Shown one piece after another: positions 39,180-58,921 of a stretch of DNA of 64,000 bases (position 1 is the first letter of the stretch; the number at the start of each line of letters is the position of its first letter). This stretch comes from Spirosoma validum (GTDB taxonomy: Bacteria > Bacteroidota > Bacteroidia > Cytophagales > Spirosomataceae): contig NZ_JACXAA010000017.1 of assembly GCF_014699035.1 (NCBI RefSeq), positions 1 through 64,000 of the forward strand. The letters run 5' to 3'. Below the pieces are notes generated by a model that was given only the letters and a program-made list of their open reading frames with translations, did no database searches and was not told the origin of the DNA. The position numbers were made by a program, and so were the translations under genes.

Positions 39180-39201
39180 CGGTTTGCTCGGTAAATAGTG
39201 A

Positions 39202-39741: not shown

Positions 39742-40221
39742 ATGGAACAAGGCCATACTTTCAACCAAGATTCGCAAGCTAAGCGCTCGGGACGCCCAAC
39801 CAAAAAAGCGGAGCAGATTCGGTGTCATAAAGTGACGATTGCCTTAACCGAAAGCGAATATCAATACTTTAAAAAACTAGCTGGTCATGAACCGTTATTT
39901 GTACCTACTGGCCGTAATGCAAGGCCAAAACGACAGCATGGATCAATGGCTGGGCTAATTAGGCGTTTAATGAAAATGAACGGGCTGGGTAAAGGACTGT
40001 CGCCTTTAGCAACCGTTGAGCAAGAGCGGATTTTAGGACAGTTAGCAAATCAGTCTAATTACTTACAGCAACTGGGGAGACAGGCGGATGCAGGAGGATT
40101 TCTGGCGGTGGTTGTACAAGTAACAAGCCTCATACAAAGAATAAGCGCTATACTAGATGAATATGATCGAATTCGAAGAATTGATCGGAAGGGTGTACCT
40201 ATTATCAACGTACCCATATGA
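39742..40221 (+). CDS. MobC-like relaxosome accessory protein
   Basis: 159 residues with the RHH-type start KVTIALTESEYQYFKKLAG and the conserved MobC segment GSMAGLIRRLMKMNG, then a helical C-terminus (ERILGQLANQSNYLQQLGRQAD). Such proteins bind oriT and help the relaxase nick. Its stop overlaps the relaxase ATG in an ATGA arrangement. Oriented away from the candidate oriT. Confidence 0.82.
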   Translation: MEQGHTFNQDSQAKRSGRPTKKAEQIRCHKVTIALTESEYQYFKKLAGHEPLFVPTGRNARPKRQHGSMAGLIRRLMKMNGLGKGLSPLATVEQERILGQLANQSNYLQQLGRQADAGGFLAVVVQVTSLIQRISAILDEYDRIRRIDRKGVPIINVPI

Positions 40222-41111
40222 TTGCTAAAGTAAGTATAGGACGTAGCTTTAGTGGGGTAGTACGGTATCTATTCGAAGGCCATCATGACGATTTACAGGT
40301 TAACAAGCAGGCCGAAATTTTGGCGGCTAATGGCGTACGGTTAGGATCAATGGAACAGATGATATCGGATTTCAATCGGCACAGAGTACTTAATACAGAC
40401 TTAGGGGTTGCGGTATGGCATACTGCCTTAGCATTTCATGCGGATGACCGCCCCAAACTGACTGACCCTAAATTAATTGGGTTAGCTGAGGATTATATGC
40501 GGGAACTCCGTCTTGATCCCGATAATATACAGTGGCTGTTAGTAAAACATAATGATACCGCTCATCCCCATATCCATTTAGTGATGAGTCGGGTAGATTT
40601 TGATGGCCGTACGGTTGACAAAAGTTTTTGCAAAGATCGTAGCCGCGAAGCAGCCAAACGTATTGCCAAACGACAAGGTCTGATCGTTGCTGCAGAACGG
40701 CAGCGTTCTAACATAGTTAACGGGCGAGTGATGTCTGCGGAATGGATGGATGCTAAACGCCAAATTCAGGCGGTTGTAGTTGCAGAACTTCCTAATGTTT
40801 CTTCTCTGGTTGAGCTGGCTCAAAAGCTTCAATTACAGCAAATTCAGATCCATTTCCAGCATAGAAAGCAGAAAAAGGGGAAAGGAGCTATAACAGGAAT
40901 TACGTTTGAAGCCAACGGTCATTTCATTCGAGGACGTAACATCGGTAAAGAGTTTAGCGCAGGGCCACTACAAAAACAGATACAGCAATCGCTACTGAAC
41001 ACTCGCTCGCCTAAAGAGCAATTAGAAGCTTCCAAGAAGATTATAGTAGATCCTCAAAAAGTAGTAAAACATGGTCGCCAAAACAGCTTATTTAGCCATA
41101 GAATACATTAA
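40218..41111 (+). CDS. relaxase/mobilization nuclease (MOBP-like)
   Basis: 297 residues. The N-terminus MIAKVSIGRSFSGVVRYL and the histidine motif HPHIHLVMSRVDFDG (HxHxx metal site) are typical of Bacteroidota relaxase/mobilization nuclease domain proteins. The Tyr in an N-terminal position such as VVRYLFEG may be the nicking residue. At about 300 residues it lacks a helicase or coupling domain, so the island is mobilizable in trans rather than self-transmissible; no mating-pair genes are seen in the window. Confidence 0.88.
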   Translation: MIAKVSIGRSFSGVVRYLFEGHHDDLQVNKQAEILAANGVRLGSMEQMISDFNRHRVLNTDLGVAVWHTALAFHADDRPKLTDPKLIGLAEDYMRELRLDPDNIQWLLVKHNDTAHPHIHLVMSRVDFDGRTVDKSFCKDRSREAAKRIAKRQGLIVAAERQRSNIVNGRVMSAEWMDAKRQIQAVVVAELPNVSSLVELAQKLQLQQIQIHFQHRKQKKGKGAITGITFEANGHFIRGRNIGKEFSAGPLQKQIQQSLLNTRSPKEQLEASKKIIVDPQKVVKHGRQNSLFSHRIH

Positions 41112-41142: not shown

Positions 41143-42597
41143 TTAGTCAGCCTTGTTATGTAACGTAATATCATACTGTCTAATCTTATTGACCAACGTA
41201 TTTATTGAGCCATAACCTAAGGCTTCACAGGCCTTTGCCTTATTACCGGAAAAGTAAATTAAGGCTTTTCGAATTAACTCTTTTTCATGAGAAGACCAGT
41301 CGAAGCTAGCCAGATCATCAGCGGGCTGGGTTAACCAAGATGGTAAATCATCAACGTCAACTTTATCTATGTAAAAGACATATAGGGATTCGATTAGATT
41401 CTCTAACTCGCGCACATTACCTGGAAACTGATACTGATCCAAAGCTCGATAAACGGCTGTTGACAACACCAATCGTTTAGGCCGACGGAAGATTTGTTGT
41501 TTTTTGCGCAGAAAGTGATCCAGTAAAGCTCTTTTTTCTTCCTGACCTCTCTCAGAGAGCGCTGGTAAACGTAATTCGGCTACGGATAGCCGATAAAACA
41601 AATCCCATCGGAAGCGCCCTTTTCCACACGCTTCTCGTAACGATTGGTGAGTGGCCGCTATAATCCGTACATCTGATTTCCGGTCTTTGGTTGATCCTAC
41701 GGGTGTATAATCCCCGGTTTGTAATACGCGCAGCAGGCTTTGTTGCATGTAAGGAGTTATATCCCCGATTTCGTCCAAAAACAACGTTCCTCCTTTAGCT
41801 ATATCGAAGAAGCCATCAGTCCGTTTCTCCGCTCCGGTAAAAGCGCCTTTCTCATAGCCGAACAGTCGAGACTCCAGCAATGAATCCCCGAAAGCTGAGC
41901 AGTTAATAGCCACAAACTTTCCTGTACGTCGTTCCGAATGTTCGTGGATATAGCGGGCAAGGTGTTCCTTACCCGTACCACTGGCACCCTGAATGAGGCA
42001 CGTGACCTTATCCGTCTGAGCCAGTTTGTCGGCTCGATCATACACTGTTTTAAGCGTTGGAGTAATCAGATAGTCCGACGCATCTGTATGTCCAGCGTCT
42101 TGAAGACCTTCCTTAACCAGTACAGATACCGGAATCACGGATTGCTCTACGTCTACCGCCACCAATTCAGGTCGGTTTGTCTTTGTAAAACGAGGAGCCC
42201 GAGTTTGGTATAGAGTAGTAGGTAGCTTTAACGATTGGTGACAGAAATACCAGGCTACCTGCATGGCTGGAGTACCCGGTGAAATAAACAGGTCGATCTG
42301 ATCGGCTTGTAAACTCAGCAGCAACGCTTCTATTTTGGTCTTGATCTCGGGCATATCAATAATGTCCCGAATGGCCATATACCGTCCTTCCAGTTTATCC
42401 TTATGGGCAGGAAAATCGAGGGATAACCGATTAATGAGTTTTTCTAACCGGAGGTCCTCACCCGTCATGGACGAGAGTATAATATGCCTGTCATGATTGA
42501 AAAAATACTGATAAAACTGATAGGTTGGCCCATTTGTATCGACCTCAGCATCCACAAAATCATTTTTGAAAGCATACCAGGATAATAAAATTTTCAT
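41143..42597 (-). CDS. CARF-like sigma54 activator (RtcR-like)
   Basis: 484 residues in three parts. Residues 1-160 look like a CARF-type sensor (ILLSWYAFKND, ILSSMTGED, DLFISPGTPAMQVAW), as in RtcR, which responds to RNA-end or cyclic nucleotide signals. Residues 180-420 are the AAA+ domain with Walker A GASGTGKE (204-211), the sigma54-contact loop GAFTGA (251-256) and Walker B TLFLDE (271-276). The C-terminus (about 440-480) is a Fis-type HTH. It is divergent from the helicase-BREX operon. The intergenic region has a -24/-12 promoter and twin palindromes, so it is almost certainly the operon's activator. The signal it senses is unknown. Confidence 0.85.
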   Translation of the reverse strand: MKILLSWYAFKNDFVDAEVDTNGPTYQFYQYFFNHDRHIILSSMTGEDLRLEKLINRLSLDFPAHKDKLEGRYMAIRDIIDMPEIKTKIEALLLSLQADQIDLFISPGTPAMQVAWYFCHQSLKLPTTLYQTRAPRFTKTNRPELVAVDVEQSVIPVSVLVKEGLQDAGHTDASDYLITPTLKTVYDRADKLAQTDKVTCLIQGASGTGKEHLARYIHEHSERRTGKFVAINCSAFGDSLLESRLFGYEKGAFTGAEKRTDGFFDIAKGGTLFLDEIGDITPYMQQSLLRVLQTGDYTPVGSTKDRKSDVRIIAATHQSLREACGKGRFRWDLFYRLSVAELRLPALSERGQEEKRALLDHFLRKKQQIFRRPKRLVLSTAVYRALDQYQFPGNVRELENLIESLYVFYIDKVDVDDLPSWLTQPADDLASFDWSSHEKELIRKALIYFSGNKAKACEALGYGSINTLVNKIRQYDITLHNKAD

Positions 42598-42630
42598 ATC
42601 AAAAATTGATGAGTAAAATCAGAAATTGAT
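42598..42630. promoter_or_regulatory. tandem palindromes, candidate enhancer for the sigma54 activator
   Basis: ATCAAAAATTGAT (42598-42610) and ATCAGAAATTGAT (42618-42630) are near-identical short palindromes exactly 20 bp apart, i.e. two helical turns, and 45-77 bp upstream of the -24 element. This spacing is typical of upstream activating sequences bound by Fis-type HTH dimers. The first copy abuts the activator start codon, so autoregulation is possible. Confidence 0.6.
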
Positions 42631-42673
42631 ATTAATAGTACGAAAAATAACTAAAATAAGCTAGTATTTGGGT

Positions 42674-42689
42674 TGGTCCTTAATTTGCC
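42674..42689 (+). promoter_or_regulatory. sigma54 (-24/-12) promoter of the helicase-BREX operon
   Basis: TTGG at 42673-42676 and TTTGC at 42684-42688 place the invariant GG (42675-42676) and GC (42687-42688) with exactly 10 bases between them, as required for RpoN. It points toward the helicase ATG at 42775. The strand, spacing and the divergent GAFTGA activator all agree. Confidence 0.7.
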
Positions 42690-42774
42690 ATATGTACTGT
42701 AACAGATGAAAATGGGTGATTAGTATTCACCTTTTACTATCTGATCAGATTAAGGAAAACAGTCACGTAAACAC

Positions 42775-45700
42775 TTGTCATCTATGTTCAATTCCTTACT
42801 TCCCTGGCACCTTGCCCAACTTAGTGATCAGTTTTCTGCTTCTAATCAGGTATTTGTCTACAAAGGCTTTCCCATTCCATTCGTCCAGGCAGTAGGGCAA
42901 TCGCACCCGATGGTTGATACACAGTCGGTCAATCCGGATGGTAAACTCGATTTGGACTACATTGACCAGAACGTACTGGATTACGCGTTTTTGCTCCGCA
43001 AACCGGCTTCTCATAATGTTGTTTTGTTTTACGAAGAATTTTTGAAGCTCTCTCAGGAGGTACGTAATATCGAACGGCTGGGTCGTCAGTTTATCATTTT
43101 CGAAAATCCGTTTTATCGGCGGGTACCGAATCAATCGAATCATAGTTTTGTCGATGTCGAATGGTCGATTGAACAGAATCGCCCCATCGTTGATGACGAA
43201 GTGTTCTGTTCATTTTATGCCAACTGTTTTCGGCAGGGAGAGCAGGAGTACATACAATACCTGACCAACGAAGCCATGGACGCCCCGAACGTAGTGAAGG
43301 GCATATTCTTTACTGGAGTGGATCGGTTGCCAGTTGTCCAGTCCATCATAGACGATCAGCTACCTGCTGGCACCATTTCGTTCCTCTCGTCGGATAATGC
43401 CTATCAGGAGTTCAAGCGGAAGATCTTTGGGAACGAACCTGTCGACCAGCCCATACACATTCTAATTGACCAGGCCAACACCCGTACGCTCGTTGAAAAA
43501 CAAGAGCTATGCATCCTGCATTTTATGCTACAGCAGGCCGAAGTGCCGTTCGAGTTTTATGTTCGTCAAACCGTTCGAGACGCATCGTACCGACCTGAAC
43601 TACTACATATCCTGCAACGCTACTGGCAGAATGCTGAAACACCGAACCATACCCAGTCGGCTCCCTCTTTCCGAACGCTTAGCATCTATCGTGACCCGGC
43701 CATTAGTCGCGAGTTAATCGACGTGTCGCAGGGGGCGGTTATCGAGCATCTGGTTCAGCAAGTTGAAGCCGCTCAAGCCAATACCAAACCTTACGAAGAC
43801 ATTTTTTTGACGTCACCAACTGGAGCGGGAAAATCGGTACTTTTTCAGGTACCGGGTATCTACCTGGCCGAGCGGTATGAGTTGGTAACAATTATCGTTT
43901 CACCCCTAAAAGCACTGATGTACGACCAGGTTGAGGCTCTGCGTCGCGAGCGGGGGTACAATGCGGTAGCTTTCATCAACTCGGATATTACACTTATTGA
44001 GCGGCAGGACATTATCGACCGTATTGCCCGAAAGGAAATCTCCTTGCTCTACTTATCGCCCGAATTGCTACTTTCCTATGACATTCGTACCTTCATTGGT
44101 GAACGTCCGTTAGGTTTGCTGGTTGTGGATGAAGCGCATTTAGTGACGACCTGGGGCCGCGATTTTCGAGTCGATTATTGGTTCCTGGGTAATTATATCC
44201 GGAAGATTCGCCGGTACACCAACCACCGCTTTCCAGTGCTGGCTCTGACTGCTACAGCTGTTCACGACGGGCCAAACGATCTGGTTTATCAGACTATTTC
44301 AAGTCTGAATATGCAGAATCCAGCTAAGTATATTGGGAATATCATCCGTCCCGAAATTTCGTTTCAGATTGACGAATCACCCTTGGTGGAAGGCAACCAT
44401 GAGCAACACAAGCTGGCTGTGACAGTAAATCACATTCGTCAGATGGTGCAAAATGGTACGAAGTCTATCGTTTATTTTCCCTGGATTAGTCAGATACGCG
44501 ACGTACTAACCTTACTGGATGCCGAGACCCGCACCCATGTGGCGATGTACTACAGTGGAGTAGCTCAGGCCGACCGCGAACGTGCGCTCCGACGCTTCAA
44601 ATCCGGTGAAGTACTGGTGGTGCTGGCCACCAAAGCCTTTGGTATGGGGGTCGATGTATCGGACATTCGAGAGGTGTATCACCATGCCCCGTCGGGCACG
44701 CTAGCCGATTATGTCCAGGAGTTTGGGCGACTCGCTCGTCAGAAAGGATTAACGGGCGTCGCCAGTATGGATTATAATGAGCGTGATCTCAAGTTTGCCA
44801 AGGTGTTGTTTGGCCTGTCGTCGCTCAAACAGTATCAGGTGGGTCTGGTGTTACGTAAACTATGGAATATGTACCGGCTTAAGCGGAAGCGTAACTTCCT
44901 GGTATCAGTTGACGATTTTGCGTACATTTTTCCGCATGATCAGGACCCCGAGCAGAAAGTCAAAAGCGCCCTACTGGTATTAGAAAAGGATTACCTGGCC
45001 CGCTATAATTACAATGTGTTAATTGTTCGCCCCAAAGCACTTTTCTCGGTCGTCTACGCTAAAGTCACCAATGCCGAGGTTGAGGCCTTCGAGAATCGTT
45101 TTGGTGAATTTATTACCCGGCTCGATGGGACACAGCGAGCTACAAAAGCCATGGCATATACTGGGAAAGGTGGGGGTGTTATATTGCCGAGAGCGGAGAC
45201 TGGGGTTTGCTACCGTATTCAGCTAGACCGGCTTTGGGAGGCTATTTTACCAGATGTGAGTTTCCCGAAAATGAAACAGGAGTTCTTTTCTGGGACACTA
45301 TTTGAAAAATTTGGTTTTACCTCGGTGTCGCCCCGTTTGCAGTATGATCTAACGCTAAACACGGGTTGGTCGGAAACGCTGGACCGGCTAACACTGCGGT
45401 TAACACAGTTGGAACGCGTCATGCATTCATTCCGGGGATTTTTCTCACAAGATGAATTATATCGGAAACTACGGGATGAATTCGGTGATGAAGCCTTAGC
45501 CCGCAAAGCGGCTAATTTGCTAACAACACTTTATAGCGAAAAGCCAGATTTTGGTCGCAATGGCCACGCCCAGCCAACGGGCACAAACTTTATCCAAACC
45601 CGTAAATCACAACGAACGAGCGATGTGGAGTACCAGGTCATCAACACCGCACTGGCGCAGGTGGCAAATACTACCCGGCAGAAGTTTAGTGCGCTCTTTA

Positions 45701-46074
45701 ACAACTTGCCTGTTACGGAATCGCATCGTCGTCATTACGTATCGACTAATACAGAGAAGAATCGCGATACGCTCAAACTGGCTTACATTCTGGAAGTGTT
45801 TGACTTGGCTACATACGAATTATCAGGTGGCGAATTGCCTCAAATTTTCATTCGTATCAACGACCCTCTGAAAATTGAGCGTTTCGCTACCTCGGCCTAC
45901 ACCAACAGCATCGTGCAGGAAGTCCACGACCGACAGAAGCGTTCGGTGAATCTGCTCGAATCGTTTTTTGCCGCAACCATGACCGACGCTGAGCGCTGGC
46001 AGTTTATTGAAGATTACTTTATGGGCTGCGAGATAGGTAACTTAGAGGAGGATGTTAAGGTAGAAGTTGCCTAA
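42775..46074 (+). CDS. RecQ-like superfamily 2 helicase with large N-terminal extension
   Basis: 1099 residues. The first about 330 are an unrecognised domain. The helicase core has Walker A TSPTGAGKSVLF (about 346-357), DEAH at 452-455, TATA motif III, and RecQ-type motifs V/VI (LATKAFGMGVDVSDI, QEFGRLARQKG). The last 400 residues are unassigned and include a C-terminal motif QFIEDYFMGCEIG. It is the first gene after the sigma54 promoter. A role as a BREX accessory helicase is inferred from position; it is not one of the core brx genes. A hairpin follows the stop. Confidence 0.82.
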   Translation: MSSMFNSLLPWHLAQLSDQFSASNQVFVYKGFPIPFVQAVGQSHPMVDTQSVNPDGKLDLDYIDQNVLDYAFLLRKPASHNVVLFYEEFLKLSQEVRNIERLGRQFIIFENPFYRRVPNQSNHSFVDVEWSIEQNRPIVDDEVFCSFYANCFRQGEQEYIQYLTNEAMDAPNVVKGIFFTGVDRLPVVQSIIDDQLPAGTISFLSSDNAYQEFKRKIFGNEPVDQPIHILIDQANTRTLVEKQELCILHFMLQQAEVPFEFYVRQTVRDASYRPELLHILQRYWQNAETPNHTQSAPSFRTLSIYRDPAISRELIDVSQGAVIEHLVQQVEAAQANTKPYEDIFLTSPTGAGKSVLFQVPGIYLAERYELVTIIVSPLKALMYDQVEALRRERGYNAVAFINSDITLIERQDIIDRIARKEISLLYLSPELLLSYDIRTFIGERPLGLLVVDEAHLVTTWGRDFRVDYWFLGNYIRKIRRYTNHRFPVLALTATAVHDGPNDLVYQTISSLNMQNPAKYIGNIIRPEISFQIDESPLVEGNHEQHKLAVTVNHIRQMVQNGTKSIVYFPWISQIRDVLTLLDAETRTHVAMYYSGVAQADRERALRRFKSGEVLVVLATKAFGMGVDVSDIREVYHHAPSGTLADYVQEFGRLARQKGLTGVASMDYNERDLKFAKVLFGLSSLKQYQVGLVLRKLWNMYRLKRKRNFLVSVDDFAYIFPHDQDPEQKVKSALLVLEKDYLARYNYNVLIVRPKALFSVVYAKVTNAEVEAFENRFGEFITRLDGTQRATKAMAYTGKGGGVILPRAETGVCYRIQLDRLWEAILPDVSFPKMKQEFFSGTLFEKFGFTSVSPRLQYDLTLNTGWSETLDRLTLRLTQLERVMHSFRGFFSQDELYRKLRDEFGDEALARKAANLLTTLYSEKPDFGRNGHAQPTGTNFIQTRKSQRTSDVEYQVINTALAQVANTTRQKFSALFNNLPVTESHRRHYVSTNTEKNRDTLKLAYILEVFDLATYELSGGELPQIFIRINDPLKIERFATSAYTNSIVQEVHDRQKRSVNLLESFFAATMTDAERWQFIEDYFMGCEIGNLEEDVKVEVA

Positions 46075-46180: not shown

Positions 46181-48778
46181 ATGATAGAAATAATGAAAGA
46201 AACACAAATAGCCGATTTTATAGAACAAGTTCTGATTCATCGTCGTCGCAGACTTTTCACGGAACAGTTGATATCCGAAATTGGTAAGCAGTACAGTACT
46301 TTAGTATCTGCCGAGCAGATTAATTCAATCGTTACTAGTGAAAAAAATAGATTTAGTTTCTATTCGAACGGCAGCATAATGTTGAATTATGAAAAGATAT
46401 TCTGGGAAATTATAGATAGTATTCGTAACCAACTCACGCATTCGAGATACTATCAAAATGCGTTAGAGCCAATTGTTTTATTCGTTTTGCGCTTACGTTC
46501 ACGCCCCGCTTTATTGACCAAGCTGAAACTCGATTCTAAGAAGTATTTAAATTTATCGGTTGCCGAATTTGCTAGAGAAATTTATTTTGACTTTAATGGT
46601 AAGAATACGACTATAACCAATCAATTCAGCTATTTTATTAAGCAATCTACTCTTATTAGTTGGCAAGACTTTGAAAATATTGAATCTAAAGTCTCTGAGA
46701 TACCTGATCACCTTTTTAGCATTTATTTTACTGACTTATTTCGATCTACAAATCGATCCGTGGTTGAATTCATAGAGCCAAATTCTACTAGCGCTGAACT
46801 GATTGCTGCACTAGGCTCAACTTTGCCATCTTACTCGGTATTTGATCCTTTCGCTGGAAGTGGGTCATTTATTGCTGAATTATATAAAATACAACCAAAT
46901 ATAGATCGATTTTATTATCTTAATGATTTAGTAATAGAGACATCATTATTAGGCGAAATAAACCTTTTTCTAAATGGAGTAGAAAATTTTCAATATACTA
47001 CGGGAGATGCTTTCAAGCTAGAAGAGAAGCATAACGCAGATTTAATCCTTTCGAATCCACCTTTTTATAATGACAAAAAATATCATAACGTAATTGAATG
47101 TGTATTAGAGCAACTTTCGATTAAGGGACAAGCATTAATTATTATACCGGATAACTATTTAAGTGGCCATCGTTACAAACGAGAGAGAGATTTGCTTGTT
47201 CGTTCTGGTAGAATTAGGTCAGTAATTTCATTGCCGCCAGGTTTATTTAAACCTCTCGCATCTATCAAAACATCAATTTTGCATATAACTAAGGCGGAGT
47301 TGAAAGGTGAACCTATTTTATTTATAAAAACAAATAATCTCACAAATGATGAATTGAGTGATAGCATAGCGGATTTGTCAGCTTCATTTGTAAGAAGAAT
47401 AGAAGAAGAAGGTAGATCTCGTTTAATTAGTATAGAAGACATAATTTTAAATGATATCAATCTTAGTGCACCAATATATTTCCTTCCATCTTTTCAAAAT
47501 TATGGTAACTCTGAGCTTGGACAATTAGTAAAACCTTTAAGGCAAATTGGGAGCTATCAGTCTATAAAAAGAGATGTTATCAATGATCAGCGTATTGGCT
47601 TTCCTATTGTCCGAGCTAGTAGTTTATTAGACACTCTTGAGTCAATTTATCTAAATATTCAATCCATTAAAAGCTTTACTAGCCAGCTTCAAGGGATTAG
47701 ATTGCCTAAAAACACACTTTTATTGTCTTTAACAGGGCCAAATCTACGCCCTACACTTGTTGATGTGGTTGATCCGCTGATAATCGATGGTAGATCAGTG
47801 ATTCCTCTTCAAATTTTATCTGATTTAGTAATACCTGAATACTTAGTTTATCAGCTGCAAGAAGAAAATGTACAAGCACAAGTGCGAGCGTACTATCAGG
47901 GAGTTCATTTTCAATATATCCGCAGAGAAGATTTGTATAAAGTTAGAATTCATATACCACCATATGAAGAGCAACAACAATATATAGAACATAAACGACA
48001 AAGCCTTGGCTTGAGCCAAATACAAAAGAGAGAGGAGATTGCTTATGAACGTTTTTCAACCCTTAAGCATAGTATGGCCCAGCCACTACGCACTTTGAGC
48101 AGTGACTTTACTACATTAAGAGATTATCTGAGCGAAAAAAGCGAAGAACAAATCCCAATTAATCTTACAGATTATACTGCACCTATATTTGAAGGTGAGG
48201 ATGAAAGCGATCTTGAGAAACTTCGGCTAACAAATGTCACAGATCGCATCAATAAAAGCATAAAGTATTTGCAAAATTCATTGAACAAAGTAGATGCATT
48301 AATAAAGACGAGTGTGCCTCTTGAAACAAAACCAGTTCAAATAAAGCAACTTCTTGAAAAGATACTGGAAATGAATAGAGATAATACATATTCATTTCGT
48401 GTTATTGGGCCTGAAGTTACCTTGAGAGCTGACCAGTTCTTACTGGAAGCTGCTTTCAGTTATTTAGTAGAAAATGCTGTAAAACATGGATTTGAATATA
48501 AGAACTCTAATGATACAAATAGTATTATCGCTGAAATAACAAAACGCAAATTTTCAAATATAGAAATCCTTTTGATGAACAATGGTCGAAGAATGGCCGA
48601 TGGAATGGACAATGAGGTTATTTTTGAGAAAGGCCGTACATCTAATAAACGTTCTGGCAGTGGTTTCGGCGGATTTGTAATTAATGAAATTATTAAGAAG
48701 CATCAGGGGAGTATTGAATTGTTTTCTCGTACTAGTGATGCCTATCCTGTTCAATTTAAAATCATTTTACCAATATGA
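46181..48778 (+). CDS. N6-adenine methylase fused to histidine-kinase ATPase
   Basis: 865 residues with an unusual fusion. Residues about 190-420 form an HsdM-like methylase with motif I FDPFAGSGS (221-229) and motif IV SNPPF (NPPF 292-295). About 430-620 resemble a type I specificity/TRD region ending IPPYEEQQQYIEHKR. H630 in LKHSMAQPL resembles an H-box, and the C-terminus is HATPase_c: N-box ENAVKHG (764-770), G1 NNGR (800-803), G2 GSGFGG (826-831). Thus a DNA-binding methylase may control autophosphorylation. The base composition is strikingly AT-rich (32% GC in one sampled 60-base line) compared with flanking BREX genes, suggesting a separate origin. Its stop overlaps the receiver gene start. 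Confidence 0.82.
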   Translation: MIEIMKETQIADFIEQVLIHRRRRLFTEQLISEIGKQYSTLVSAEQINSIVTSEKNRFSFYSNGSIMLNYEKIFWEIIDSIRNQLTHSRYYQNALEPIVLFVLRLRSRPALLTKLKLDSKKYLNLSVAEFAREIYFDFNGKNTTITNQFSYFIKQSTLISWQDFENIESKVSEIPDHLFSIYFTDLFRSTNRSVVEFIEPNSTSAELIAALGSTLPSYSVFDPFAGSGSFIAELYKIQPNIDRFYYLNDLVIETSLLGEINLFLNGVENFQYTTGDAFKLEEKHNADLILSNPPFYNDKKYHNVIECVLEQLSIKGQALIIIPDNYLSGHRYKRERDLLVRSGRIRSVISLPPGLFKPLASIKTSILHITKAELKGEPILFIKTNNLTNDELSDSIADLSASFVRRIEEEGRSRLISIEDIILNDINLSAPIYFLPSFQNYGNSELGQLVKPLRQIGSYQSIKRDVINDQRIGFPIVRASSLLDTLESIYLNIQSIKSFTSQLQGIRLPKNTLLLSLTGPNLRPTLVDVVDPLIIDGRSVIPLQILSDLVIPEYLVYQLQEENVQAQVRAYYQGVHFQYIRREDLYKVRIHIPPYEEQQQYIEHKRQSLGLSQIQKREEIAYERFSTLKHSMAQPLRTLSSDFTTLRDYLSEKSEEQIPINLTDYTAPIFEGEDESDLEKLRLTNVTDRINKSIKYLQNSLNKVDALIKTSVPLETKPVQIKQLLEKILEMNRDNTYSFRVIGPEVTLRADQFLLEAAFSYLVENAVKHGFEYKNSNDTNSIIAEITKRKFSNIEILLMNNGRRMADGMDNEVIFEKGRTSNKRSGSGFGGFVINEIIKKHQGSIELFSRTSDAYPVQFKIILPI

Positions 48779-49686
48779 ATATAGATAAACCTATTAACGT
48801 CCTATTTATTGACGATGATGTAAATGTTCGTGAATCTCTAATTGGTGAAGCTCGTCGCAAACGTATCCTCATCAGAGGAGTTGATAACCTTGATGATGGT
48901 ATTCTTGAACTTCGAAGTAATAATCGGATTAAATTTATTATTCTTGATGGGAAGGGTTTTCGGCGTCGTGGCCAAGTTAAAGGAACCGAAAGCAGCAGCT
49001 TTGCTATCAAAGCGGCACAAGAAATTCCACGGTTAGCAAAGGAGCTAGACCGATACCTGCCCTTTTGTTTCTTTACCGGATTTGCTGACTTAGCTAGTGA
49101 TCTTAGTGGAGCGGATCACATTGTTATCGATAAAAATGAAGAAAATGCGACAGAAAAACTTTTTGAACACATCTGGAGGACTTATCAAAATTCGGATGAA
49201 GGACGTTTGAAACAGCAATACGAACCGCTTTTTAACTCTATCGATATATTGAGCAACTCCCAGGCTGAGCATGACCTAATAACTTTTCTAACTGAAAAAG
49301 ATGCTAGGCAAGGTAACCGTCTTAAACACACCGCTCGGCTAATCCGGCCAATTATGGAAGCTATATTCGCCAAAATAGCTGAGTTGGATCGTGAGATGTT
49401 ACCTGACGGTTTACAGATTGGTAATCAGCAAAGTTTGTCCAATGCAATTTGGCATCTAGGAGGTAAGCCTCAATGGAGTAAGACAAACAAGAAATACGAT
49501 TTTGGTGGTAAGTCATATATTCCTTTTCATTTGTGGATGTCTATTGATTTTCTTCAAAAAGCCTTGAGTACGGTTGCTATGCATGACTATCCTGCCTCAA
49601 TCTCTTATTATACACTTTCCAGTTATGGAGATATTTTAGCGGATTTGTTGCTTTGGTTTTCTGATTTCATGCGCAACCGTGCTTAA
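48775..49686 (+). CDS. receiver-domain partner of the methylase-kinase
   Basis: 303 residues. The N-terminal 125 are a receiver: acidic D13-D15 in LFIDDDVN, phosphoacceptor D58 in IILDGKG, T101 in FFTGF and K120 in VIDKNE, all four key positions conserved, with a longer D58-T101 spacing than CheY. Residues about 130-303 are a helical domain of unknown family, no HTH or GGDEF. ATG overlaps the methylase-kinase stop (ATGA). It is the natural phosphorelay partner of the fused kinase. The output is unknown and might act on the BREX complex or on nucleic acid. Confidence 0.8.
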   Translation: MNIDKPINVLFIDDDVNVRESLIGEARRKRILIRGVDNLDDGILELRSNNRIKFIILDGKGFRRRGQVKGTESSSFAIKAAQEIPRLAKELDRYLPFCFFTGFADLASDLSGADHIVIDKNEENATEKLFEHIWRTYQNSDEGRLKQQYEPLFNSIDILSNSQAEHDLITFLTEKDARQGNRLKHTARLIRPIMEAIFAKIAELDREMLPDGLQIGNQQSLSNAIWHLGGKPQWSKTNKKYDFGGKSYIPFHLWMSIDFLQKALSTVAMHDYPASISYYTLSSYGDILADLLLWFSDFMRNRA

Positions 49687-49823: not shown

Positions 49824-49881
49824 AGCCGCCCGAACTTAGGTACTATTGCGGTTTGATTTTTTCTACCATAATAGTACCCGA

Positions 49882-50475
49882 ATGTATCGTCTCTCTTTTA
49901 CAGCGGCTTCATTTCGGTTGGCTGAAAGTATTCGGCTGGCTGAATTGTATCAACAATGTGCTGACTGGCAGAAAGTTAAACAAATGGCTATAGCAGGCGA
50001 TGTGTTGCAGTTAGGGCGAGCCGCAACCGTTACCCGTGAGAGCCGGGAGCTAATCCATCGATTAAAGAAACTGGCTGACAAAGAAATGGATTTTCTGCTT
50101 CACACCGATACGCTAACACAACGGCAAATGATCCTGATTGCTATATGTCGAACCTACGATTTCGTACGTCAGTTTGTGCTTGATGTCGTACGTGTCAATT
50201 ATCAACGATTTGAATTTGATATTAGTGATAGTGACTACAGCCGTTTTTTTAATCAGCAAGCGGCTCTGCACGATGAATTAGATGAATTATCCGATTCATC
50301 AAAAGCGAAGATTCGTCAGGTCCTGTTTCAAATTCTGGCGGGGGCTGGTTACATAATGTCAACTCAGCAGCGAGTCATTACACAACCGGTTGTTCTCGAT
50401 ACGTTGGCCGACCTGATTCGCCAGACCCGACCTGCTGATTTGCCTTTGCTTCTTTTCAATGACCGAGATTTATGA
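49882..50475 (+). CDS. brxA: BREX protein BrxA (DUF1819)
   Basis: About 197 residues, mostly helical, beginning MYRLSFTAASFRLAESIRLAEL, with TRESRELIHRLKKLADKE and the AICRTYDFVRQFVLDVVR segment of the DUF1819/BrxA family, an RNA-antitermination-like fold protein in BREX systems. Start taken at ATG 49882; a TTG at 49846 would add 12 unlikely residues. Its last codons overlap the brxB start (ATGA). The order brxA-brxB-brxC-pglX is the canonical BREX type 1 order. Confidence 0.88.
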   Translation: MYRLSFTAASFRLAESIRLAELYQQCADWQKVKQMAIAGDVLQLGRAATVTRESRELIHRLKKLADKEMDFLLHTDTLTQRQMILIAICRTYDFVRQFVLDVVRVNYQRFEFDISDSDYSRFFNQQAALHDELDELSDSSKAKIRQVLFQILAGAGYIMSTQQRVITQPVVLDTLADLIRQTRPADLPLLLFNDRDL

Positions 50476-51059
50476 TTACTACTTCATCACTTACCGATCA
50501 ATTTGATCATTTGTTTGCCGTTATCCGGTCGCCGGGATTTCTACGGAAAGAAGCCCTGGGTGGTGAGATTGGTTTTTTTATCCATGCCTATGAGCCTGTT
50601 CAACAAGCAGAAGTAGAACAGGCAACGGCCAGGCTTATCAATCGACTGAAACAGCAAGGTGTACTCGTTGTAGAGATTAATTTATATACGATCTGTATTG
50701 ATCTGCTAACGGAGCAAAATCGTCTGGATCAAATTATTGAACGGGAGTCCTCCATGCCAAAAGAAAAGTTGTTGCGAGCCATGCAGTCGTCGCTGAGTGT
50801 AGAGGGACGTTTAGTACCTGCTATTGAAGCCCGCCTAGCTCAAACTCCTCATCAGGTCGTTTTTCTGACCGGTGTTGGGCAAGTCTTCCCGTTTATTCGC
50901 TCGCATACTGTGTTGAATAATTTGCAGCGTGTGATAACTCAGCCTCCGCTAGTTATATTTTTTCCAGGGCAATATAACGGCCGCTCACTTGAACTCTTTG
51001 GCCTGCTGCATGACGATAATTACTACCGCGCCTTTAACCTTGCTAATCTTCATTCGTAA
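50472..51059 (+). CDS. brxB: BREX protein BrxB (DUF1788)
   Basis: 195 residues of the DUF1788 family: GGEIGFFIHAYEP near the start, then LVVEINLYTICIDLL, and the conserved FLTGVGQVFPFIRSHTVLNNLQ with VIFFPGQYNG near the C-terminus. BrxB is an essential BREX component of unknown biochemical role, probably contacting BrxC and PglZ. It overlaps brxA by 4 bases and abuts brxC with no gap (TAA then ATG). Confidence 0.92.
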   Translation: MITTSSLTDQFDHLFAVIRSPGFLRKEALGGEIGFFIHAYEPVQQAEVEQATARLINRLKQQGVLVVEINLYTICIDLLTEQNRLDQIIERESSMPKEKLLRAMQSSLSVEGRLVPAIEARLAQTPHQVVFLTGVGQVFPFIRSHTVLNNLQRVITQPPLVIFFPGQYNGRSLELFGLLHDDNYYRAFNLANLHS

Positions 51060-54000
51060 ATGATCCTTCAGGATAGTTTTGCCAAACCTATTGGCCGCCC
51101 CATTGAAACCGTTATTAAAGCCGACGATACCAGCCACGTTGAGCAGGAAGTAAATGAGTATGTTATTACACAGGAGCTTTCCAAAAAGCTGGAGATTTTC
51201 TTTGCGGCTTATAAAGACACCTCGCCCGGCGTAGTAGCCAATGGCGTCTGGATTTCGGGCTTTTTCGGCAGTGGTAAATCGCATCTGCTGAAAATCCTGT
51301 CCTATGTGCTCGAAAACAAAACGTATGACGGGCGTCAGATTGGGCAGGTGTTTGCCGATAAAGCGCAGGACAACGCATTACTACGGGCCGACATCCTAAA
51401 CGCGGTACGCATTCCGTCCTGCTCCATTCTGTTTAATATCGATCAGAAAGCGGATGTCATTAGCAAACAGCAGCCCGACGCCATCTTGTCAGTTTTCTAT
51501 AAGGTTTTCAACGACTTCATTGGCTATTACGGTGCTCAGGGACACGTAGCTGACTTCGAGCGGGCATTGGATCGGCAGGGAAATTACGAAGCCTTTAAAG
51601 AAGCGATCCAGGATCTGACGGGTCGCTCCTGGACCGATATTCGTATGGATTATGCCTGGGAAGAAGACGCGATTACGCAGGCGCTGGCTCGGGTACGTGG
51701 TAATCAGCCAGACGATAACCGGAACGTACTGGACACGTACCACCGTGACTATAAATTATCGGTTGATGATTTTTGCCAGCGGGTGCAGGATTATATTGCC
51801 AGTCAACCCAAAGGATTTCGACTCAATTTCTTCGTGGACGAAATTGGCCAGTACATTGCTGATAACAGCAAACTTATGCTGAATCTGCAAACCATTGCTG
51901 AAACATTAGCTACTCGAACTAAGGGCCAATCGTGGGTACTGGTGACAGCGCAGGAAGACATGGCTCAAGTTATTGGCGATATGAATCAGCGACAGGAAAA
52001 CGACTTTTCGCGCATTCAGGCCCGCTTTGCTACACGGCTGAGTCTGACATCAGCCAACGTCGATGAAGTGATTCAGAAAAGGCTCCTGGAGAAAACGGCA
52101 GCCGCTAAGGTGCAGCTTGAACTGCGGTATGAAACGGATCGGCACAACCTGCAAACCGTATTTCAGTTCGTAGAGAGCCGAGTCTTTAAAGGCTTCCGCA
52201 ACGAAGCCGACTTTGTGGATAAATACCCATTTTTACCATACCAGTTCGATCTGTTTCAGAGCACTATTCGTGGCCTATCGACCCACAATGCGTTTCAGGG
52301 GAAACATGCGTCGGTAGGTGAACGGTCGATGCTGGGCGTTTTTCAACTGGTTGTACTGCAAATGGCTAATGGGCCAATTGGGCCGTTTGTTACGTTCGAC
52401 CGGCTGTTCGATGGCATTAGTTCGACTATTCGAGGTGAGACGCAGGCTTCCATTACGCAGGCGACCAAACAGCTCGATAACGACCTGGCCAAGCAGGTGC
52501 TACGGGCGCTGTTTATGGTTAAATATGTGAAGGAGTTCAAAGCGAATCTGCGGAATATATCGATTCTGCTCACTGGCGATTTAACGACGAATCTGAAGGC
52601 CCATGAACTAACTGTACTCGAAGCTCTGAATCTACTCGAAGCCCAAACGTATATTCAGCGTAACGGGGATACGTATGAGTTCCTGACCGATGAGGAAAAA
52701 GACATTGAGAATGAAATTAAGGCCGTTAAGCTCGAACTGGGAGCCGATAATCGGCTGTTGAGTGACCTTCTTTTTGGCGAGATTGTCAAGGATGCCAAAA
52801 TACGGTATCAACTTAATAAGCAGGATTACGACTACACGCAGAAAATCGATGGTGTAACGACCAGTGGCCGCGAGCGGGAGTTAGCCATTAATATGCTAAC
52901 GCCTAACTTCGAAAACTACGATAACGAAGCCTTGATTGGGGCACACTCGATGGGAGTTAGTACGCAGCTATTTTGTAAGCTGGCTCCCGATATGCAGTTG
53001 CTGGACGATGTACGGATGTATCTAAAAACGGATACCTATATTCGGCAGAACAATTCGTCGGCCGCTACGGATACGACCCGCCGTATCATCTCCGAGAAAG
53101 GTACGCAGAATAGCGCCCGTCGACGAGCTTTGCAGGTAAAGCTAAACCGCCTGTTGGCCGATAGTAAAATCTGGCTGAATGGTTCGGTTCTGGATTTAGG
53201 CGTATCCGGTGAGGGGCGCAACCGGATTAATGCAGCCGCTCAGGAATTGATACGGGTAGCGTATCCGAACCTGACGATGCTGGGCGATACAACGTATTCG
53301 GAGGAGGCTATTAAAACGACGCTCAACAGCCGCGTTGATGATCTTTTTCGAAACGATGATAGCGCCCTAGGCGAGGCCGAGCGCGATCTGCTGGCTACGT
53401 TGAAACGACGCAAACAAGCTGCTGAACGGACGACGGTCAATGACCTCCTAACGCATTTCAATCGCAAACCGTACGGGTGGTACCCAGCCGCTACGCTGAC
53501 TCTCATCGCCCGGCTCTACAAACGGGGTAAGCTGGAAGGACGGCTGGATGCGAACTTACTGGCCGATACGGGTATGAAAGATTCCCTAACAAACAGCCGT
53601 TTGTTCGATAAAACCTTGCTGGAACCTCAGGAAGATTTTGAACCGTCGAAAGTCAAAAAACTCCGCGACCTATACACGGAATTGTTTGACGAACAGGCAC
53701 CCACGATTGAAGCCAAAGAATTGGCCATCGCATTTCAAAAACGGGCCAGGGAGCTAAAAATGGAACTTGACGGGCTACGGGCCAGTTCGGGACAATACGC
53801 TTTCCTGAATGCGCTGGCCCCTGTAACCGAACAACTAGGCAAGCTAAGTCAGAAAGAATACGCCTATCTGGTGAATCAGTCGGGGCAGTTTGCTGATACG
53901 TTGCTGGACGCCAAAGAAGACCTGATTGCGCCCATCCGTACATTTTGGAATGGGCCGCAAAAGGGTATTTTTGATCGGCTGCGCGAGTTCATCAAAGGCG

Positions 54001-54680
54001 ATCAGTCGAACTTTAGCTACATCGACAGCGCGGAGCTGAATCGACTAAAAACGATTTTCGATAGCCCCAATCCCTTTGCAGGCAACCTAATGCAGGAAGC
54101 AAAAGCAGCTATGGACGTAGTGGCCGATAAGGTGAAGGCTGAAAGAGAGGCACGTCGACAGCAGGCAACCAACGCCGTGCAGCAGTGCATTGAACGGCTC
54201 CAGCAGCATGAAGATTTTGCCGGATTACTAGCTGATCAACAACGCGTTGTGCTTAAGCCGCTCAATGAATTGCTCGAAGAAATCAAACACCAACGATATA
54301 TCGGTACGATAGAATCGCTGGCGCAACGAGCGCAGCAGAAGCTGACCGAACAGCTCAATGTTATTGTGAGGCTGGCTCATTCCCCCGCTGTAAAGACCCA
54401 ACCAGCGAACGGGAAGCCAGATGAAGAAACACCGGCCTCATCTCCGTCCACCCAGGTTTCAAGCCAGCCCAGCCCGGCAACAGCCACGCCCGACCGGCCT
54501 CCCGTAACGTATCCGGTTCCAGCTCAGGAGCCGGTTGTTACGTATGTGAATCGACAGAGCGTAACGATTGATTTTGCTAAACCCGAATTAAAAACCGAAG
54601 ACGACGTTGATGCCTACGTCGAAGCGATGCGGGCCTCGCTGAAAGCACTGATTCAACAAAATAAACGCATCTCCCTATAG
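51060..54680 (+). CDS. brxC: BREX P-loop ATPase BrxC
   Basis: 1206 residues, the large AAA+-like BREX ATPase. Walker A is GFFGSGKS at 67-74; NFFVDEIGQYI supplies the Walker B acidic pair, and VTAQEDM the sensor segment. The C-terminal half is helical with a Pro/Ser-rich linker (about 1115-1165) before the end. BrxC is thought to drive the defence or methylation complex in an ATP-dependent way. The size matches BrxC of BREX type 1. It is followed by a 25-bp perfect palindrome before pglX. Confidence 0.93.
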   Translation: MILQDSFAKPIGRPIETVIKADDTSHVEQEVNEYVITQELSKKLEIFFAAYKDTSPGVVANGVWISGFFGSGKSHLLKILSYVLENKTYDGRQIGQVFADKAQDNALLRADILNAVRIPSCSILFNIDQKADVISKQQPDAILSVFYKVFNDFIGYYGAQGHVADFERALDRQGNYEAFKEAIQDLTGRSWTDIRMDYAWEEDAITQALARVRGNQPDDNRNVLDTYHRDYKLSVDDFCQRVQDYIASQPKGFRLNFFVDEIGQYIADNSKLMLNLQTIAETLATRTKGQSWVLVTAQEDMAQVIGDMNQRQENDFSRIQARFATRLSLTSANVDEVIQKRLLEKTAAAKVQLELRYETDRHNLQTVFQFVESRVFKGFRNEADFVDKYPFLPYQFDLFQSTIRGLSTHNAFQGKHASVGERSMLGVFQLVVLQMANGPIGPFVTFDRLFDGISSTIRGETQASITQATKQLDNDLAKQVLRALFMVKYVKEFKANLRNISILLTGDLTTNLKAHELTVLEALNLLEAQTYIQRNGDTYEFLTDEEKDIENEIKAVKLELGADNRLLSDLLFGEIVKDAKIRYQLNKQDYDYTQKIDGVTTSGRERELAINMLTPNFENYDNEALIGAHSMGVSTQLFCKLAPDMQLLDDVRMYLKTDTYIRQNNSSAATDTTRRIISEKGTQNSARRRALQVKLNRLLADSKIWLNGSVLDLGVSGEGRNRINAAAQELIRVAYPNLTMLGDTTYSEEAIKTTLNSRVDDLFRNDDSALGEAERDLLATLKRRKQAAERTTVNDLLTHFNRKPYGWYPAATLTLIARLYKRGKLEGRLDANLLADTGMKDSLTNSRLFDKTLLEPQEDFEPSKVKKLRDLYTELFDEQAPTIEAKELAIAFQKRARELKMELDGLRASSGQYAFLNALAPVTEQLGKLSQKEYAYLVNQSGQFADTLLDAKEDLIAPIRTFWNGPQKGIFDRLREFIKGDQSNFSYIDSAELNRLKTIFDSPNPFAGNLMQEAKAAMDVVADKVKAEREARRQQATNAVQQCIERLQQHEDFAGLLADQQRVVLKPLNELLEEIKHQRYIGTIESLAQRAQQKLTEQLNVIVRLAHSPAVKTQPANGKPDEETPASSPSTQVSSQPSPATATPDRPPVTYPVPAQEPVVTYVNRQSVTIDFAKPELKTEDDVDAYVEAMRASLKALIQQNKRISL

Positions 54681-54738
54681 GTGAAAGAGCGAAAGAGCGA
54701 AAGCCATCCGGCAGGCTTTCGCTCTTTCGCTCTTTCAC
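54681..54738. repeat. perfect 25-bp inverted repeat between brxC and pglX
   Basis: Arms 54681-54705 and 54714-54738 are perfectly complementary around an 8-nt loop, built of GAAAGAGC direct repeats. It starts right after the brxC stop and ends 13 bases before the pglX ATG, so an mRNA hairpin could lower or couple pglX expression. It also resembles repeat-derived intergenic palindromes. Confidence 0.9.
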
Positions 54739-54751
54739 TCCTTCACTCTTT

Positions 54752-57700
54752 ATGAATACCAACTCACTCAAGAAATTTGCAACGGCCGCTCGCCGAAAAC
54801 TCATTACCCAGATCACCGCTAAACTGGATTATGTACTCAAAGCCGACTCGGCTGCTTTGCGCGAGCGGGCCGATGCGTTACGCCAACTGCGCGACGAGTT
54901 GACGCGTTCAACCCGCAACGAATTGATAGAACGGGTGGCCTATACCTGGTTTAACCGGTTTGTGGCCCTACGTTTTCTTGACGTGAACGATTACCAGCCG
55001 TCGGCTATTCGGGCAGTATCGCCGGTAGACGGGTTTACAACGCCCCAACTGCTAGACGAAGCCAAGCAGGGTCAGATTCCTGATGAGCTGGCGGTAGATG
55101 CCCGGCGGGTGCTGGATTTGCTCGACGGCCGACTGCCCAGCCGCGATCCTCAAAACGAAGCTTATGGCCTGCTGTTGCTGGCTACCTGCAACGCGCTCAA
55201 CGTGCCACTGCCGTTTCTGTTCGAGCCGCTGGCCGACTATACTGAGCTGCTCATGCCCGACGATCTGCTATCGCCCCAGTCGGTGCTGACGGATATTCGC
55301 GACGGCATGACCGCCGACGATTGCCAGAACGTAGAGATCATCGGCTGGCTGTATCAGTTCTACATCAGCGAGCGCAAAGACACCGTGTTTGCGGCCAAAA
55401 GCAAGGTGAAAGCCGAAGACATTCCGGCGGCTACGCAATTGTTTACGCCCCGCTGGGTGGTGGAATACATGGTGCAGAACACGCTGGGCAAACTCTGGTT
55501 ACGCAATAAGCCCAGCTCCGGCTTGAAAGCCCTGATGCCGTATTACCTCGAAAGCCCGTCAGAAACCACCGACATATATCTGAAACTAACCAGCCCGCAG
55601 GAATTGACTCTGCTTGATCCGGCAGCGGGCAGCGGCCATATCCTGGTGTATGCATTTGAGTTGTTGGTCCACATTTACGAAGAAGAAGGCTACGGTCGCA
55701 CCGACATTCCTAGCCTGATTCTGCAACACAACCTGATGGGCTTCGACATTGACGAGCGGGCGGCTCAGTTAGCCAGTTTTGCCCTCGCCATGAAAGCCCG
55801 GCAGTACGACCGCCGTTTCTTCCGACGTAACGTGCAGCCGCGTGTGGTGGCCCTGCACAAACTGCAACACACCAACCCCGCCGACTGGCAGCCCGTACTG
55901 GCCGATGCGAGCGTAACACTGACCGATACCCTTCGTGCCGACTTGACGCTGATGACCCACGCCAACAATCTCGGTGCGCTCATCCGTCCCGAAACAGGTG
56001 AAACCACCCTGCAACAAGCCGCCAACTTAGCGAAAGCCTACGCCGATCAAAGTAGTGACCTCTTCCGCAAACCACAGGCTGAAGATCTGGCGGAAGCGTT
56101 GGCACACCTCGCGTTGCTGGCTCGTAAGCATACGTGCGTAGTAGCAAACCCGCCGTATATGGGCGGGGCTAAAATGAACGACTTTGTAGGCAAGTTTATG
56201 GGTAAATACTACCCTGACTCAAAGGCGGATTTAATGACCGGCTTCATGGAACGTACCGAAACACTGGTACAACCCGATGGCTATGTAGGCATGATTAATC
56301 TGCCCTCGTGGATGTTTCTTTCATCGTTTGAAGCATTCCGTAAAAACCTCATACAACGCTTTAAAATTGACAGTTTGTTGCAAATGGGTCGTGGTATTTT
56401 TGGTTCTGATTTTGGTAGTGTGGCCTTTACGTTACAGTTTTCTAAACCGCCCCACGGCGACGGGGTGTACCGCCGGTTATTTGAAGAACACGTACAGGTA
56501 CGGAGTATTGAAAAGATTCGAGATTTATTTCTGGATAAAACATACGGTTGTTACCACACGAAGCAGGATAATTTCGAGAAGATTCCGGGTGAGGTAATTG
56601 GCTATTGGTTGAGCGAACAGGCTATAGGAGCGTTCGTTGGATCAAAATTGCTAAATGAAATTGGGGACCCTCGGCAAGGAATGGCAACTTGTGATAATGA
56701 TAGATTTACAAGGATGTGGTACGAAGTCACTCAAAAGAAAATTGGATGGTCATTTACTAATGGCAATGAAGCTAAAGCAAGTAATAAAAAATGGATTCCT
56801 TACAACAAAGGCGGGGCTTATCGCAAATGGTATGGAAACCAAGATTTAGTTGTCAACTGGGAAAATGACGGAGGTGAAATCACTGAATATGTGACAAAAA
56901 TGTATGGATCTCCAAGTAAGAGAATTGCTAGTAGGTCTGAATATTTTAAAGAGTCTCTAAGCTGGTCGAAAGTTACCAGTGGGAGTTTTGCTGTGAGGTA
57001 TTTTCCTAAAGGTTTCATATTTGACGTTGCTGGATGTAGCATATTTTTTAAAGATCAAGAAGACATTGGATTAGTAGCAGGTGTTTTAAATTCAACTGTT
57101 GGGAATTTTTATTTAGGGCTGTTGTCTCCTACATTAAATTTTGAAGCTGGTACTATTGCTAAGTTTCCCTTAATAGGTGTACAAGATGCATCAGTAAACC
57201 AGACAATAAATAGTTGCATTTCCATTTCTAGCCAAGATTGGGACGCTCGCGAAACGTCTTGGGATTTTCAAACCAACGAGTTGCTCCGTCATCGCACGGA
57301 TAATCTGTTGGCCAACGCCGTAGCGACCTACGAAACGTATTGGCAGGCAAAATTCAGCCAGCTTCACGAGGACGAAGAGGCACTCAATCGCATTTTTATT
57401 GATCTCTACGGCCTTCAGGACGAGCTAGCGCCGGATGTAGCACCGGACAATATTACCATTCTGCAACAGGAAGCCAAACCCGATGCTACCGGCAAACTCC
57501 AGTTTGATCGGCGCGAACTCATGGCGCAATTTGTGTCGTATGCCGTCGGCTGCATATTTGGTCGTTACAGCCTCAGCAAGCCGGGCTTAGTACTCGCCAG
57601 TCAGGGCCAAACCCTGGCTGATTATCAGAGAGAAGTAGAAGCAGGCGAAATCGTGGCAGACGAAAACGCATTTCAACCAGATGCTGACAACATTATTCCC

Positions 57701-58885: not shown

Positions 58886-58921
58886 GCACTACTTACCAGA
58901 ACCAGCCAACATCCATTATTT

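Follow-up and report, generated by a model that had tools for sequence, protein, structure and literature searches.

A methylase-histidine kinase fusion and its receiver partner: a conserved, apparently undescribed signalling module associated with DNA defence

The DNA considered here, referred to as the window, is a stretch of 64,000 nucleotides from Spirosoma validum (contig NZ_JACXAA010000017.1, positions 1 to 64,000). Two overlapping genes on its forward strand encode a protein that combines a methylase, a target recognition domain (TRD) and a histidine kinase, and a partner protein with a receiver domain. The pair adjoins a BREX-1 (bacteriophage exclusion) gene set, but the observations below identify it as a conserved signalling module that is associated with defence and is not a component of BREX. 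The module is real and apparently undescribed.

The fusion protein and its receiver

The fusion gene (46181-48778) encodes 865 residues; an alternative start is possible at codon 5 (46193). The start of the receiver gene (48775-49686, 303 residues) overlaps the stop of the fusion gene by 4 bases. In the length of the fusion and in the overlap, the open reading frames agree with a preliminary description of the DNA, made from the sequence alone. The open reading frame list, Pfam, structure models and conservation divide the fusion, with approximate borders, into a helical N-terminus (residues ~1-190), an N6-methylase part (~191-435) with motif I DPFAGSG and motif IV NPPF, a type I TRD-like part (~436-600), helices resembling the dimerization and histidine phosphotransfer (DHp) domain (~601-715), which contain the H-box histidine H630 (codon 48068-48070), and a GHKL ATPase (~716-865) with N765, G802, G828 and G830. 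The Pfam models N6_Mtase (E = 1.9e-22) and HATPase_c (residues 751-851, E = 8.5e-8) reach their cut-offs, and Methylase_S (residues 470-600, E = 1.7e-4) is barely past its own (22.3 vs 22 bits). When 52 fusion homologues are compared with Pfam one by one, the three models match 50, 45 and 24 of them, respectively. The HsdM-type motifs I and IV proposed in the preliminary description are present in the window copy, and its type I TRD-like segment is recognised narrowly.

The same succession of domains appears in the AlphaFold2 model of the fusion, which was built on a 52-row alignment (mean predicted local distance difference test, pLDDT, 77.0; predicted template modelling score, pTM, 0.64). 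The model contains a methylase core, a TRD-like part, helices 595-656 (with H630) and 683-709, and an alpha/beta ATPase at about 717-864; the N-terminal ~200 residues mostly have a pLDDT below 75. As its best matches Foldseek lists type I M proteins and methylases that contain their own recognition part, type IIG methylases included; several of these structures are DNA-bound.

In the kinase half, H630, N765, G802, G828 and G830 are unchanged in all 88 distinct fusions (out of 93 rows; the profile used to pick them covers this half as well). The 52-row alignment has six invariant columns, and five of them are the H, N, G1 and G2 positions. The first residue of a textbook G1 box is Asp. At this position 85 of the 88 homologues have Asn and 3 have Asp, and Asn can therefore be regarded as a trait of the family. 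The H-box-like histidine and the N, G1 and G2 boxes noticed earlier are accordingly all in place, except that G1 begins with Asn. Searched as a 30-row profile, the last 266 residues, which make up the kinase half, match solved histidine kinases in the PDB (best E = 7.3e-13), whereas the window fusion as a single-sequence query matches none of them. The GHKL fold of the C-terminal domain, on which the preliminary description had let its proposal depend, is supported by Pfam, by the AlphaFold2 model and by the PDB profile. The protein has both hallmarks of a two-component kinase, an H-box histidine in a predicted DHp-like helix and the GHKL N, G1 and G2 boxes.

The receiver protein consists of a receiver domain (residues ~1-139) and a helical C-terminal domain (~140-303) of no known family, in which R191 and H270 are invariant. 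The four canonical receiver residues that had been read from the sequence are indeed there: D13, D14, D58 and K120 are each conserved in 63 of 63 homologues, and position 101 (T101 in the window) is Thr in 48 and Ser in 15, so that acidic pair, phospho-aspartate, Thr/Ser and Lys are complete throughout. D58 (codon 48946-48948) is the presumed phospho-acceptor. No Pfam model matches the window receiver protein. AlphaFold2 predicts a receiver fold with confidence (pLDDT 89.7), and Foldseek matches it to receiver domains. Against viral structures, a single Foldseek match, to a receiver protein, has an E-value below 0.001; receiver and histidine-kinase proteins head the list, and the weaker rows are mixed.

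The C-terminal domain of the receiver protein, presumably its output half, is harder to place. The best match of its profile in the PDB, where nothing convincing was found, is a CdiI immunity protein (E = 0.037). HEPN domains have the motif Rx4-6H. A HEPN identity was rejected: one of the 63 homologues gives a weak HEPN_Apea match (E = 0.024), and R191 and H270 do not form the motif. The top Foldseek hit, PorX, raised the possibility of a PglZ-like output, but PorX fits with a root-mean-square deviation of 12.6-17.4 and nothing is concluded from it. About two thirds of the receiver homologues, as judged by length (65 of 95 have at least 365 residues), carry a cold-shock-like tail, which the window copy does not have. 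The receiver family profile matches cold-shock proteins over this tail of the longer members, and the S1/CSD model is matched by 16 of 63 receivers. These matches hint at an output that may be linked to nucleic acids.

Unlike the kinase, the methylase half usually appears degenerate across the family. Among the 88 fusions the strict motif IV is found in 32, the strict motif I in 6 and both in 1, the window copy. The HsdM proteins encoded nearby keep the strict motif IV in 41 of 41 cases. If motif I is judged by one looser rule applied to both groups, 3 of the 88 fusions pass compared with 40 of the 41 HsdMs, and the window copy is again the sole fusion with both motifs. The fusion of locus L153, which is outside the 88, has DPFAGIGS and NPPF and by eye fits the strict patterns. 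As the kinase is conserved and the methylase chemistry is not, the degenerate motifs favour sensing over catalysis as the probable role in the family as a whole. For the window copy catalysis is possible, and because its motifs are intact this protein may also methylate a target of its own. L045, L047 and L049 have this kinase-receiver pair too, but there the pre-kinase part resembles P-loop NTPases and not a methylase; the weak ATPase/NACHT hits behind this come from L045 alone, where the gene begins at the edge of a contig.

Inheritance of the pair and the restriction genes beside it

The fusion gene lies directly upstream of, and on the same strand as, 90 of 95 distinct receiver genes (at least 240 residues; part of them were found via the fusion), with a median gap of -0.5 base. 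In the set found with the receiver query only (L075-L145) the fusion is directly upstream in 69 of 72. Five receivers lack an adjacent fusion according to the script. In L033 the fusion is present and the receiver start was over-called, in L079 and L095 the fusion is in pieces, L141 lies at a contig edge, and in L072 a 763-residue gene with a weak HATPase match precedes the receiver. L034 has two receiver pieces, both under the length cut. Two fusion-receiver pairs stand in tandem in L131 (3522-10918).

The homologues were collected from overlapping draws of genomes, and each count includes the genome of the window. Among 291 genomes of the order the fusion search matched 18 and the receiver search 10; receiver profile searches matched 13 of 395 genomes of the phylum, 5 of 222 of the family and 13 of 395 of the class. 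Three plasmid records and one scan of genome contigs, which gave 71 loci, were further sources. L151-L153 and some later loci are outside the counts of 88, 90 and 95. By matched range and alignment, L019 and L042 look to be methylase only and L048 an ordinary kinase.

The two proteins also vary together. Distances between receiver domains correlate with those between kinase halves (Spearman 0.76, 56 loci; Mantel p 0.003, the minimum possible with 299 permutations). The C-terminal half of the receiver follows the kinase less closely (0.32; Mantel p 0.003), and its correlations with the methylase and the TRD are 0.47 and 0.48. In the same 56 loci the distances of HsdM give 0.06 with the receiver domain, 0.11 with the kinase and -0.02 to 0.11 with all parts of the pair. 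Since the receiver domain tracks the kinase while HsdM tracks nothing, the fusion and the receiver are the inherited unit, next to which the restriction-modification (R-M) genes appear to be exchanged. The correlation between the output half and HsdM is nil (-0.02), and simple co-adaptation of the two is therefore disfavoured.

The closest relative found, L153 from the same family, illustrates such an exchange. Its activator, fusion and receiver are 58.6%, 53.7% and 47.4% identical to those of the window, and the arrangement is the same except that a DUF2130 gene replaces a helicase gene between activator and fusion. Downstream of the receiver L153 continues with HsdM, HsdS, three PDC-M64 homologues and HsdR, where the window has brxA, brxB, brxC, pglX, three PDC-M64 genes, others, pglZ and brxL. 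Between the two receivers, identity lies at 60-84% in residues 1-125, at 44% in 126-150 and at 12-32% in the rest. This comparison, of one locus pair only, suggests that the match of kinase and receiver domain is kept when output half and cargo are replaced. The PDC-M64 trio, a PADLOC candidate system, stands between modification and effector genes in both the BREX locus (58394-59756) and the type I R-M locus (L153:14400-16018).

The cargo across the relatives is most often a classical R-M system. Type I R-M genes accompany 62 of the 90 pairs, BREX genes 2 and neither of them 26, as judged by phmmer similarity to a few reference proteins within the DNA examined at each locus; the 26 are in part due to short contigs. 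A separate HsdM is present with 58 of the 90 pairs. With variations, the genes commonly follow each other as WYL regulator, fusion, receiver, HsdM, HsdS, other genes, HsdR. A WYL gene occurs in 64 of the 90 loci, in 57 of these within 400 bases of the fusion, and a CARF-sigma54 activator in 4; no locus has both and 22 have neither (a distant WYL gene of the window, 31605-32624, was left out of the WYL counts).

In the window the pair sits on the same strand as the BREX-1 genes, after the helicase gene and 5' of brxA, and not among the core genes. The claim that it is inside a BREX operon therefore holds for strand and adjacency and not for a position between core genes. The first genes downstream are brxA and brxB (49846-51059; brxA may start at 49882), followed by brxC and pglX (51060-58285), the three small PDC-M64 genes and the 5' part of pglZ (63229-64000), all on the forward strand. 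In L146 pglZ encodes 832 residues and is followed by brxL. The BREX-1 set is otherwise complete (brxA-brxB-brxC-pglX-pglZ-brxL), and the scan of window proteins recognised none as HsdR.

The other BREX-associated pair is that of L096 (Lewinella cohaerens), where brxABC are present, brxA lies 6.7 kb downstream of the pair and an oppositely oriented gene stands between. A window-like PglX was found in 4 of the 291 genomes of the order, the window's included; at the three loci other than the window, the ~8-11 kb examined upstream of brxA contain no pair. The constant presence expected of a core component is thus not observed, and conservation next to BREX, to which the preliminary description had tied its case, is nearly absent. 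Its broader suggestion of an undescribed defence module stands in that the pair is conserved, associated with defence and not found described, and fails in that the module is not one of BREX.

The gene directly upstream of the fusion (42775-46074, forward strand) encodes a RecQ/DpdF-like helicase (PADLOC C3a193, 'poss. alt. Cas3', E = 1.8e-188). It is not a constant partner of the pair; a related helicase gene is divergent to the fusion in L036. Divergent from the helicase gene in the window is that of a CARF-AAA-HTH sigma54 activator of the RtcR_PspF2 kind (41143-42597, reverse strand; PADLOC RtcR_PspF2, E = 1.6e-129). Activator homologues lie near the pair in L034, L043, L044, L067 and L153. 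In L180 (genome G279) such a homologue is divergent to brxA, with no pair in the DNA examined upstream of brxA; the pair of this genome is on another contig, in the type I R-M locus L040. The activator is therefore a separate, exchangeable part. Its homologues stand at the head of restriction loci of both kinds, type I R-M in L153 and BREX in L180, which suggests control of restriction operons by a CARF ligand. RtcR-like CARF activators are reported to head defence superoperons that can include type I R-M and BREX (PMC11090510, seen in part).

All loci of the genome contig scan carry Bacteroidota labels except L099 and L141, contigs of metagenome-assembled genomes with proteobacterial labels, which may be misbinned. 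Other phyla are under-searched because the search patterns came from Bacteroidota. Four scans of viral contigs, which reach only fairly close relatives, gave no relative.

Comparison with known systems

Several known systems share part of this architecture. The fold of fusion residues ~190-600 is that of HsdM/HsdS and of type IIG methylases, from which the fusion differs by its C-terminal kinase, its usually degenerate motifs and the separate HsdM that usually stands alongside where type I R-M is present. MADS is an eight-gene mad locus. In PADLOC the window fusion scores best with mad2 (E = 2.9e-23; mad5, 4.9e-8), but in the L096 and L083 fusions type I methylase models outscore mad2. Membership in MADS was rejected, as the only further match among the window proteins scanned with PADLOC is a weak one of mad8 on BrxC.

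The Response_reg_2/HEF_HK pair is similarly a two-component-like pair beside R-M systems. According to the part of the source seen (Bellieny-Rabelo et al. 2021, PMC8011034), its links are above all with type II R-M and C5 methylases, and HATPase_c_3 is present in most HEF_HK genes. The examined text of that paper contains no methylase-TRD fusion, which the window pair has. Neither PF19192 nor PF19191 matches the pair or the homologues scanned, the presence of both models in the Pfam copy used being unconfirmed, and membership was set aside. CapK and CapS are a GHKL kinase and its substrate beside immune operons; in the examined part of PMC13373217, CapK is an HTH-STAS-GHKL protein that responds to single-stranded DNA and phosphorylates a serine of a STAS-domain repressor. 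The sensor of the window pair is instead a methylase-TRD and the partner a receiver with an Asp; no STAS or helix-turn-helix (HTH) domain was matched by Pfam in fusion or receiver, and membership was rejected.

A 2026 survey of BREX accessories (PMC12839542) mentions the fusion of a Schlafen RNase with a minimal histidine kinase, and its main text, as far as examined, does not contain the words 'receiver', 'HATPase' or 'GHKL'. Figure legends of PMC13092281 name HATPase and REC among the domains of predicted E. coli defence systems, and the pair may overlap with one of these. The literature search, whose scope mostly excluded subscription papers, found no recognisable description of a methylase-TRD-kinase fusion with a receiver. 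As the preliminary description had it, the pair is neither a core BREX gene set nor an ordinary two-component system.

A possible transferable switch for restriction

By the features of sequence and structure examined, the pair is a two-component system: a predicted methylase-TRD half is joined to a predicted H-box/GHKL kinase half, the partner receiver has a complete active site, and the two are inherited together. The pairing of kinase and receiver is well supported. Because the pair recurs in many related bacteria, and oftener before classical restriction systems, it has the look of a sensor-switch that can be moved between DNA defence systems. We consider it probable, if by no means secure, that it is a dedicated, transferable DNA-sensing two-component switch controlling the adjacent restriction system.

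The methylase-TRD half would bind a DNA target and read either the DNA or its modification state, as the earlier suggestion of a methylation-state or DNA-sensing kinase plausibly has it. This reading would control whether H630 autophosphorylates and passes its phosphate on to D58 in the receiver; candidate signals are DNA, its methylation state, S-adenosylmethionine and single-stranded DNA. The phosphorylated receiver would then, via its helical domain, license, restrain or induce the neighbouring restriction machinery, which would be BREX in the window and type I R-M in most relatives. The output might be a direct contact with the restriction complex or might pass through the WYL or CARF regulator.

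A more specific form of this switch is a kinase that reads modification. Here the (pseudo)methylase and its TRD would scan DNA for their motif, bulk unmodified sites, which would be phage DNA or the result of failed self-methylation, would change the state of the kinase, and the phosphorelay would license or block the adjacent BREX or type I system. This form is tentative and somewhat doubtful; if true, restriction enzymes would have a portable checkpoint between self and non-self. It is an old question how restriction systems spare their own cell when methylation lags, and yet switch on in time. An input domain built from a methylase gives that question named residues (H630 and D58), and the natural swap of BREX in the window for type I R-M in L153 bears on its generality.

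Several points weigh against a switch of this kind. Phosphorylation, signal and output are what we infer, and the output step is a guess, because the output domain matches nothing convincing among solved structures. The Pfam receiver model is unmatched in all 63 receiver homologues, and the G1 box of the kinase starts with Asn instead of Asp. HsdM correlates with no part of the pair, so that co-adaptation with this cargo subunit was not found, and 26 of the 90 pairs have neither an R-M nor a BREX gene in the DNA examined. The intact methylase motifs in the window and, by eye, in L153 would also permit a working methylase in that sub-clade.

This last point leads to a different explanation, in which the fusion is a self-contained methylase-specificity protein that adds a second modification specificity, and the GHKL domain is a conformational ATPase of the MutL/MORC kind and not a phospho-donor. 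The intact motifs I and IV and the match of the fold to type I and type IIG methylases, several of them DNA-bound, agree with it, and restriction systems are reported to have paraMORC-related GHKL ATPases nearby (PMC8011034, in the part seen). It is nevertheless unlikely, as one or both of the strict methylase motifs are missing in 87 of the 88 fusions, the H-box histidine is invariant, and the receiver has a full active site in a domain that co-varies with the kinase half. Far less probable still is an auxiliary component specific to BREX. The position directly 5' of brxA and the presence of brxABC in L096 would fit such a role, but the distribution, with BREX at 2 of 90 pairs against type I R-M at 62 and with no pair in the DNA examined at three other BREX loci of the order, largely refutes it.

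It is quite possible, though on balance not what we expect, that kinase and receiver regulate transcription of the defence operon through the adjacent WYL or CARF-sigma54 regulator, much as CapK and CapS do (PMC13373217, seen in part). This explanation overlaps with the DNA-sensing switch, being one form of its output step. The frequent WYL genes close to the fusion (57 of the 64 within 400 bases) and the four loci with an activator are in its favour. Against it, no HTH was recognised in the receiver, the 22 loci mentioned have neither regulator, and the distances of the WYL regulator track the parts of the pair only weakly (Spearman 0.15-0.33, 49 loci). A sigma54 promoter ahead of the helicase gene was considered and rejected: the scan stayed at chance level (39 consensus matches vs 32.9 expected; 16 of 100 shuffles as high), and the gap at 42597-42775 contains no match.

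Of the plasmid records, 724 match the fusion and only three cover at least 80% of it; these are Myroides records of equal length in which the receiver is also present. Beside the window locus, positions 38448-41111 contain a weak ParA-like match and a MobA/VirD2 relaxase gene (E = 5.1e-26). As relaxase and ParA-like genes adjoin the locus and a mobilizable Myroides plasmid carries the pair, it is suggested that such islands travel on mobilizable elements. Further upstream of the defence locus, on the forward strand, a gene at 35997-37709 encodes a 570-residue protein with an inactive-receiver (iREC) domain (E = 3.1e-17) and a weak second receiver-like stretch.

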